This document shows, piece by piece, positions 19,403 through 21,378 of a DNA stretch of 42,894 nucleotides. Where the stretch lies: contig JAICOU010000006.1 in assembly GCA_025930495.1 (NCBI GenBank), positions 1 through 42,894 of the forward strand, read 5' to 3'. This stretch comes from Nitrososphaeraceae archaeon. GTDB taxonomy: Archaea > Thermoproteota > Nitrososphaeria > Nitrososphaerales > Nitrosopumilaceae. Position 1 is the first letter of the stretch. Each line of letters begins with the position of its first letter. A model generated the notes under the pieces. That model saw only the letters and a list, made by a program, of their open reading frames with translations, was not told where the DNA came from and ran no database searches. Both the position numbers and the translations under genes were made by a program.

Positions 19403-20062
19403 ATGAGTGCAATAATAGGACAAAAAGCACCAAATTTTGAAGTGTCTGATTGGGTTCAAGGAGCCCCAACAAACTTTGATCAGGAAAAAGATCATATTGT
19501 TTTAGTAGAGGTATTTCAGGTGAATTGTCCTGGTTGCTTTATGCATGCACTTCCAGAAGCAATTAGCATTTACAACAAGTACAAAGATGATGGGGTACGG
19601 GTAATAGGAATCGCTACAGCATTTGAGGATTATGATAAAAATACTCTAGATAATCTAAAGATGTTAGCTGAGACAGGCGAGGTCGTAGGGGAGACAAAAA
19701 ACGCACTATCAATGTACGGGCAGTTGCAAAATGGCAAACTAGCATATAAAATTCCATTTCCTCTTGCGATGGACAAACTAGCTAAAACAGACGGCAAAGT
19801 AAGCGAGGATAAGATATTACAGTTCATTTACGGGCAAATCCCAGAATTTGATTCCCAACCAGAAGAATATAGAAAACAAATCATTCAAAGAGTTAGAGAC
19901 TATATGAAAACAAAAGAGTATTCAGCAGAGACATTTGAAAAATTTGCACTGCAGGGAACACCATCTATGATACTAGTGGACAGAAAAGGAATTCTACGAG
20001 ATGTCTCTTTTGGACAATCAGGCAATGTTGAAGCAATGATTCAAAAACTGCTAAACGAATAA
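19403..20062 (+). CDS. TlpA/AhpC-like thioredoxin-fold protein
   Basis: A 219-residue cytosolic protein with a redoxin fold. The opening IGQKAPNFEVSDW and the active-site CPGC at residues 42-45 are typical of AhpC/TlpA-type proteins, and GTPSMILVDRKGILRDVSFG near the C-terminus includes the conserved cis-Pro strand. A long insert (about 75-150) between the two halves carries most of the extra length. The CxxC suggests disulfide reductase or peroxide detoxification; the substrate cannot be told. No signal peptide. Confidence 0.8.
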   Translation: MSAIIGQKAPNFEVSDWVQGAPTNFDQEKDHIVLVEVFQVNCPGCFMHALPEAISIYNKYKDDGVRVIGIATAFEDYDKNTLDNLKMLAETGEVVGETKNALSMYGQLQNGKLAYKIPFPLAMDKLAKTDGKVSEDKILQFIYGQIPEFDSQPEEYRKQIIQRVRDYMKTKEYSAETFEKFALQGTPSMILVDRKGILRDVSFGQSGNVEAMIQKLLNE

Positions 20063-20330: not shown

Positions 20331-20348
20331 TAAAATACTAGTATTTTA
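20331..20348. promoter_or_regulatory. 18-bp perfect palindrome
   Basis: TAAAATACTAGTATTTTA reads identically on both strands. It lies 11 nt before the 83-residue gene start and just after the stop of a 26-codon mini-ORF. It could be an operator, a core promoter or a short hairpin; the sequence alone does not decide. Confidence 0.4.
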
Positions 20349-20356
20349 GCAAATAT

Positions 20357-20437
20357 CTAGCGAAGAAAAACCAGGATCACAGATAACACTGCAACAATAC
20401 AAAAGCCACCAATTAATGCAACTTTTGCATTATTCAT
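20357..20437 (-). CDS. 26-residue single-span membrane miniprotein (candidate)
   Basis: ATG-initiated, 26 residues: MNNAKVALIG then a continuous hydrophobic stretch ending VFLR. This is one complete transmembrane helix with a positive residue at each end. A/T-rich sequence (TTTTTATTTTG on the minus strand) lies about 20-30 nt upstream. Such peptides often stabilise larger membrane complexes, but no partner is evident here. Length is too short for confident calling. Confidence 0.4.
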   Translation of the reverse strand: MNNAKVALIGGFCIVAVLSVILVFLR

Positions 20438-20484
20438 AAATCATATTTTCACAAACAAAATAAAAACAAATCTCGATTTAGGAT

Positions 20485-20580
20485 CTATTTGTTTATTATA
20501 ATTTTGTGACATGTACAAAAGCAGTTGACGTGTTTCAGATTATTGGTAATTTTAGATGCACAATCTTTTGTATGCTCCAT
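20485..20580 (-). CDS. 31-residue Cys-rich miniprotein (candidate)
   Basis: ATG-initiated, 31 residues: MEHTKDCASKITNNLKHVNC, then FCTCHK and a short basic end. Cys7, Cys20, Cys22 and Cys24 plus His residues could bind a metal ion such as Zn or Cu. A TTTAAG/TTAAAA tract lies about 24-30 nt upstream. It is one of three minus-strand mini-ORFs in this spacer. Real coding status unproven. Confidence 0.35.
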   Translation of the reverse strand: MEHTKDCASKITNNLKHVNCFCTCHKIIINK

Positions 20581-20632
20581 GAGAAAAAATACAATGAATT
20601 TTAACTTAAATTTTTATGAATTAAAATCAATA

Positions 20633-20728
20633 TTACCAAAATGAGATATTAAACAATGCCAACATTATTCCATAAAATGCCACAAGACCAACAATAATAG
20701 CTATGACGCCTTTGGTGGAATTTTTCAT
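20633..20728 (-). CDS. 31-residue single-span membrane miniprotein (candidate)
   Basis: ATG-initiated, 31 residues: a basic start (MKNSTKG), about 19 hydrophobic residues with Gly/Ala (VIAIIVGLVAFYGIMLALF) and a short polar end NISFW. One membrane helix. It resembles in size and style the 26-residue ORF 200 nt downstream on the same strand, though the sequences differ. Function unknown. Confidence 0.4.
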   Translation of the reverse strand: MKNSTKGVIAIIVGLVAFYGIMLALFNISFW

Positions 20729-20829
20729 GCGTAAAAACACATAAAATAATACAAACTTAAGGATTTAGAAATTAGTTGCATTGCAGTGCAATCGTACCAC
20801 TTAAGATTAAACTGTATAATTAACATTTT

Positions 20830-20976
20830 ATGGAGACAGCCAAAGTTACCAAATTCAGATGGGGTGAAATCTCTGAGCTTAATTCAGGCCATACTGCAAA
20901 CGAATGGGGAATGGAACAAAAGGCAAAACCAAAACAAACCACGATTATCGCATATGATATTTCGTGGAACAAGTAA
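20830..20976 (+). CDS. 48-residue hypothetical protein
   Basis: ATG-initiated ORF of 48 codons: METAKVTKFRWGEISELNSG, then a polar Gln/Lys-rich centre and a beta-like end TTIIAYDISW. The balanced composition looks more protein-like than the longer overlapping frame from 20786. It converges with the 126-residue gene (21-nt gap). No family recognised. Confidence 0.45.
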   Translation: METAKVTKFRWGEISELNSGHTANEWGMEQKAKPKQTTIIAYDISWNK

Positions 20977-20997: not shown

Positions 20998-21378
20998 TTA
21001 AGATGTCAAACTATCTGGGAAATATCTAAATCTCCAATGCATTAGTTTGTTAAAGATCTCAAGATAGTCTTTTGATTTTGTTGTGATATGTACATGGGCA
21101 TACAAGTTCTCAAAGCAGCCCTCAAAAACTAACGTACTTTGTTTTTGAAATAGAGGTATGGTCAATCCTACTTTTTTGATGTCTGTAAATGTATAATTCT
21201 CAATTAGAATAGCATTACTTTTGATTACTATCTGCTTTTTTTCCTTATTATTTAGAGAATCATTGACTTGCTTGATTGTCAAATCACTCCATTTTGGAGT
21301 ATCAAGTGGCCAATGATGAGCATGTACTTTATCTGCCAGGAATTTAATTTCTGTGAATTTTGATTGATTGTCTGGCAA
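20998..21378 (-). CDS. hypothetical protein
   Basis: A 126-residue soluble protein without signal peptide or membrane span. It alternates beta-like segments (KQIVIKSNAILIENYTF, STLVFEGCF, AHVHITT) and ends in a helical KDYLEIFNKLMHWRFRYFP block. Several His near residues 19-22 (HAHH) could bind metal, but this is speculative. Not recognised. It stands alone between two convergent or co-directional neighbours; ATG start. Confidence 0.5.
   Translation of the reverse strand: MPDNQSKFTEIKFLADKVHAHHWPLDTPKWSDLTIKQVNDSLNNKEKKQIVIKSNAILIENYTFTDIKKVGLTIPLFQKQSTLVFEGCFENLYAHVHITTKSKDYLEIFNKLMHWRFRYFPDSLTS

Follow-up and report, generated by a model that had tools for sequence, protein, structure and literature searches.

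Very small proteins of several kinds have been described in archaea. In Methanosarcina mazei, 314 unannotated small ORFs are predicted from Ribo-seq to be translated (PMC11456600), and the 49-aa protein MtrR of the same species is located at the membrane and acts on a larger membrane complex (PMC13370731). Haloferax volcanii possesses zinc-finger micro-proteins with two C(P)XCG motifs (PMC11241148, PMC10716476, PMC6562870), and the archaeal ammonia monooxygenase includes the small helical proteins AmoX, AmoY and AmoZ (PMC10030591); the descriptions used here are those given in excerpts of these publications. Within the topics searched, no survey of small proteins in ammonia-oxidising archaea was found in the open-licence literature. 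Nitrosopumilaceae rank among the most abundant archaea, and it is in a Nitrosarchaeum-type genome of this family that we analysed a 42,894-nt stretch of DNA (hereafter, the window), which corresponds to contig C30 in a draft assembly of 1.4 Mb.

A first-pass annotation of the window had proposed that one apparently empty spacer harbors overlooked small proteins, namely three minus-strand, ATG-started mini-ORFs of 26, 31 and 31 codons and one plus-strand ORF of 48 codons, all of which were found in place. TMa (20357-20437, minus strand, ATG start) encodes a 26-aa single-helix membrane protein, MNNAKVALIGGFCIVAVLSVILVFLR; the Cys peptide (20485-20580, minus strand, ATG start) is 31 aa long and carries the four cysteines attributed to it; TMb (20633-20728, minus strand) is a single-helix membrane protein of 31 aa when read from the ATG at 20728, or of 35 aa when its frame is read from a GTG (20633-20740), its relatives being about 28-33 aa long; and ORF48 (20830-20976, plus strand, ATG start) encodes a soluble 48-aa protein with the motif KFxW...NSGHTxxEWG...AYxxxW. 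The mean hydropathy over the best 19 residues of TMa and TMb, 2.95 and 2.78, bears out the membrane helices ascribed to these two peptides.

Short open frames in A/T-rich DNA are unremarkable by themselves, since 14 ORFs of at least 20 aa overlap this region, and it is their conservation that exceeds what chance provides. Pairwise codon counts among genomes of the genus yielded pN/pS ratios of 0.33 for TMa (15 genomes), 0.26 for the Cys peptide (8 genomes), 0.37 for TMb (15 genomes) and 0.21 for ORF48 (9 genomes), next to 0.24 for C83, a longer neighbouring gene (13 genomes); matches with less than 60 nt upstream from a contig end were excluded from these sets and from the comparison of start codons. 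Shuffling of alignment columns gave median values of 0.70-0.76 versus the 0.21-0.37 observed for the four frames, and none of 200 shuffles was as low as the observed ratio for any of the four or for C83. In the seven Nitrosarchaeum relatives with the same spacer, start and frame are kept in 7/7 for both the Cys peptide and TMb, while TMa keeps its start in all seven and is open through residue 25 in all seven (its automatic score of 5/7 reflects stops that fall one codon earlier and shift the end of the alignment); start and frame of ORF48 are likewise kept in the relatives of the genus comparison. Of four other ORFs of the spacer, used as controls, one retains its start and frame in a single relative of the seven and the other three in none. 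That the frames are merely chance products of A/T-rich intergenic DNA, as the ease with which such frames arise might suggest, is next to impossible in light of this purifying selection, of the decay of the control frames, and of the persistence of related frames elsewhere in the genomes of other genera. A second alternative, in which the conservation reflects RNAs or promoter DNA and not proteins, finds some backing in the promoter-like boxes conserved in the spacer and in a perfect 18-bp palindrome at 20331-20348; we nonetheless deem it highly improbable, as differences concentrate at third codon positions (in ORF48, for example, 232/177/571 for the three positions), ATG and GTG replace each other as the start at the same codon in TMa, the Cys peptide and TMb, and no Rfam family was matched in the window. 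A tRNA scan of the window was negative as well. In the aligned spacer (window and seven relatives), the three minus-strand frames have an identity to the window of 0.84-0.86, compared with 0.73 and 0.78 for the two gaps that separate them and 0.56 for the region upstream of TMb. With the exception of the final TMa codon, insertions and deletions fall between the frames. A point against this contrast is the 36-nt stretch separating TMa from C83, which matches the frames in conservation (0.88). Because selection, fixed starts and decayed control frames all speak for proteins and not for chance, the spacer almost certainly contains four real, separately evolving small-protein genes. The first-pass annotation had offered a synonymous/nonsynonymous comparison of each frame as its check and a lack of conservation in close relatives as what would tell against it; the former came out as coding for all four, and the latter was not what we found.

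Profile searches across class-wide samples of genomes (counted at E<=0.001) detected the Cys peptide in 72 of 250 genomes and 7 of 62 genera, ORF48 in 48 of 250 genomes and again 7 of 62 genera, TMa in 54 of 200 genomes and 4 of 56 genera, and TMb in 32 of 200 genomes and 4 of 56 genera. Looser searches (E<=1) reached 137/200 genomes for TMa and 145/200 for the Cys peptide but have a long chance tail and were not used for counts. Among the matches listed in these samples, all four families are found in Nitrosopumilaceae only. Within the 18 genomes of the genus, TMb is present in 15 and absent from three, and ORF48 has no match in five and only weak and diverged ones in three more. Searches of Pfam and NCBIfam revealed no family that fits any of the four proteins at its cut-off, PHROGs and PADLOC no family, and the PDB no significant match to a solved structure. 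Weak matches to Holin_BlyA, PsbX, 15-PGDH and a ribonuclease were regarded as chance and dropped. AlphaFold models were weak for both ORF48 (pLDDT 65) and the Cys peptide (pLDDT 67).

In genera g4 and g18, TMb and TMa lie next to P274 (21425-22249, minus strand, in the window), a CFI-box-CTERM protein (81 bits, cut-off 40) and the probable partner of TMb. Of eight loci from these two genera that were read for gene order, seven show L15e-P274-TMb-TMa-convergent redoxin, and the eighth ends with its contig; in the window, the ribosomal protein L15e gene lies upstream of P274 (22251-22709, minus strand) and the AhpC/TSA-type redoxin gene (19403-20062, plus strand) closes the conserved block. In all nine g4 and g18 loci in which the junction was examined, the start of TMb falls within the P274 stop codon (NTGA, as ATGA or TTGA). 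According to excerpts of the respective reports, coupled genes are most often spaced by a -4 overlap (PMC12548453), and the subunits of heteromeric complexes show an enrichment of short gene overlaps (PMC10666635). The location of the TMb start within the P274 stop codon in two genera is suggestive of TMb being a small subunit translated together with P274; the two would be made together through the NTGA overlap, as subunits of one complex. The partnership is not universal, since TMb has left the P274 stop codon in Nitrosarchaeum (0/7 loci, with the stop 35-267 nt upstream) and is located elsewhere in Nitrosopumilus. In the window, ORF48 and C126 are inserted between P274 and TMb. C126, a 126-aa protein without family (20998-21378, minus strand), lies between ORF48 and P274, and a relative of it also adjoins ORF48 in genomes G075 and G069. 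TMa follows TMb or P274 in many of the genomes examined, from which we infer, with less assurance than for TMb, that it would join the same membrane assembly as a second one-helix protein; in G046, redoxin, TMa, P274 and L15e stand side by side. In Nitrosopumilus, the stop codon of the gene before TMa begins 5-38 nt ahead of it (nine loci with a readable upstream gene, 11 tried); in five of these nine that gene encodes a hydrophobic C-terminal tail, and in four it is a different gene.

Two other roles may be considered for these helices. One is that of the small hydrophobic toxins in type I toxin-antitoxin systems, which TMa and TMb would fit on general grounds by their length and single helix. 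As such toxins they would hardly be expected to keep fixed neighbours across several genera or, in the case of TMb, a start that overlaps P274, and PADLOC gave no match; we hold this reading to be improbable. For an antisense RNA antitoxin, the Rfam scan of the window, which covers known Rfam families only, gave no match. They might instead be accessory subunits of respiratory or ammonia-oxidising complexes and not of P274, a proposal that draws on the small helical AmoX, AmoY and AmoZ of archaeal ammonia monooxygenase but that we consider rather unlikely: AmoY and AmoZ measure 9.6 and 12.8 kDa in the excerpted account (PMC10030591), TMa and TMb are confined to Nitrosopumilaceae among the matches listed in the searched genomes, and their neighbours in the loci examined are L15e, P274 and the redoxin. 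Association with P274 remains the reading that we prefer.

In the Cys peptide, H3, C7, H17, C20, C22, C24, H25, K26 and I27 are invariant across 12 aligned rows from Nitrosarchaeum, Nitrosopumilus and g18. This invariant Cys/His pattern suggests a metal-binding protein, which would be a tiny zinc- or copper-binding one with ligands among C7, H17, C20, C22, C24 and H25. Two C(P)XCG motifs are not found in the sequences of the window and its relatives, which read CFCTCH and have no CPXCG. Residues 5-26 matched the CYCXC family (seleno)protein NF041379 (E 0.0069, 16.4 bits, cut-off 90 bits), a candidate that was rejected; the longer Nitrosopumilus members of the Cys family have no NF041379 match. 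The genome of the window holds a second copy (G000:C55:6530-6649), flanked by families F2 and F7 as in the Nitrosarchaeum genome G032, and the same block holds the Nitrosopumilus copy. Because the C55 copy keeps these shared neighbours and the Nitrosopumilus-type block, the copy in the window looks like a Nitrosarchaeum duplicate.

ORF48 is preceded on the plus strand (20777-20789) by TGCANTGC operator-like boxes, TGCATTGC (20777-20784) and TGCAGTGC (20782-20789), at 53 and 48 nt before its ATG. A TGCANTGY box occurs upstream of 34 of the 36 distinct ORF48-family genes, about 47 nt (46-49) before the start when later start codons are allowed for and identical proteins are counted once, as opposed to a mean of 0.2 and a maximum of 2 in composition shuffles; the two genes without it (L008 and L009) have GCAGTGCA, which differs from it by a single base. 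The box is also found, frequently in tandem, ahead of the gene of a 109-110 aa winged-helix protein with weak HTH matches in 22 of 25 loci (shuffles, maximum 1), five of 30 loci having been left unscored as their start was not found by motif. The winged-helix gene of the window's genome (G000:C110:28911-29237) also has the box upstream. In 12 Nitrosotenuis genomes, ORF48 and the winged-helix gene are divergent and 101-113 nt apart; these pairs come from 14 g17 genomes with an ORF48 match, of which G070 and G094 (partial or broken ORF48) were left out. Boxes near ORF starts numbered 68 at 44-52 nt, and four control ranges of distance gave 67, 24, 28 and 26; since single boxes thus occur near starts by chance, our argument is built on repeated, fixed placement. 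An extended form of the pattern, used to look for further linked genes in the window's genome, has one exact site only there.

Both promoters thus share a box at a fixed distance and, given that this box precedes a winged-helix gene divergent to ORF48 in Nitrosotenuis, ORF48 is probably a target of the winged-helix regulator. The regulator would bind the TGCANTGC boxes of two promoters, its own and the one that drives ORF48, and the small soluble ORF48 protein would be produced under its control; that ORF48 in turn feeds back on the regulator is a guess. ORF48 stands between families F10 and F11 in four Nitrosopumilus regions; these families adjoin without it in the Nitrosarchaeum genomes G000 and G032, indicating that the gene has moved and, judging from its conserved upstream region, that its promoter moved along with it. 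In one Nitrosarchaeum locus (L159), the winged-helix gene (5474, minus strand) and a gene for a universal stress protein (5569, plus strand) are arranged divergently, with TGCAN repeats between the two. F24, an 80-aa putative membrane protein encoded near ORF48 in Nitrosopumilus (L138, L164, L165, L168, L172 and L178), likewise has a TGCANTGC box, located 48-52 nt ahead of the start. A longer relative of ORF48 (L190; G011:C23, about 50750-51010) continues beyond its ORF48-like part into a Cys-rich tail resembling a small zinc ribbon.

The spacer contains further promoter-like elements. TATA-like CTTAAG sequences lie about 28 nt before the ATG of ORF48 (20800-20805, plus strand) and upstream of TMb (20756-20761, minus strand), the latter kept with small variants in a surrounding upstream region that is 56% identical. 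Among 148 ORFs of at least 150 aa, TTAAG was matched seven times at -30 to -21 and as often, seven times, at -50 to -41, for which reason only the conservation of these elements beside TMb and ORF48 is claimed. The next gene after TMa is C83 (20069-20320, minus strand), which encodes an 83-aa protein from a TTG start, is present in 13 of the 18 genus genomes and went unlisted in the first-pass annotation. The palindrome noted above, TAAAATACTAGTATTTTA, lies between the stop of TMa and the start of C83, is kept with small changes in seven relatives and may be a C83 operator.

Taken as a whole, an explanation that combines four small-protein genes with a TMb/TMa-P274 assembly, a metal-binding Cys peptide and a regulator-controlled ORF48 appears moderately probable from these comparisons. 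With somewhat more doubt than confidence, we also propose that two new modules may be represented: a membrane assembly in which a CFI-box protein would be co-produced with one-helix proteins of 26-33 aa, either one or two of them, and a self-controlled winged-helix switch whose output is ORF48, the two genes having stayed linked through TGCANTGC after they moved apart. The start-stop overlap of P274 and TMb and the box shared by ORF48 and the regulator make two of the small proteins directly testable. At 26 aa, TMa, which has been kept across several genera, falls under the size limit of common gene finders; the four families indicate that spacers of these compact genomes hide conserved proteins that can be found by comparison alone.

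Conserved, overlooked small proteins are a kind known from archaea, of which the four families appear to be new members. TMa and TMb resemble MtrR of M. mazei as described in the excerpted report (PMC13370731) in being tiny archaeal membrane proteins put in relation with a larger membrane complex; unlike MtrR (49 aa), they are 26 and 31 aa long and have a putative partner, the likeness being one of description. In the same descriptive sense they recall AmoX, AmoY and AmoZ (PMC10030591, in excerpt) as small helical membrane proteins of ammonia-oxidising archaea, although AmoY and AmoZ exceed them in size and are linked to amo genes. The weak CYCXC match of the Cys peptide (NF041379) stays far under the cut-off of that family. 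The Cys peptide can also be set beside the H. volcanii zinc-finger micro-proteins (PMC11241148, PMC10716476, PMC6562870), as the excerpts of these studies present them: like them, it is archaeal, very small, equipped with several cysteines and probably metal-holding, but where they carry two C(P)XCG motifs it displays its own arrangement, C-x12-C-x-C-x-C-H, with no CPXCG.
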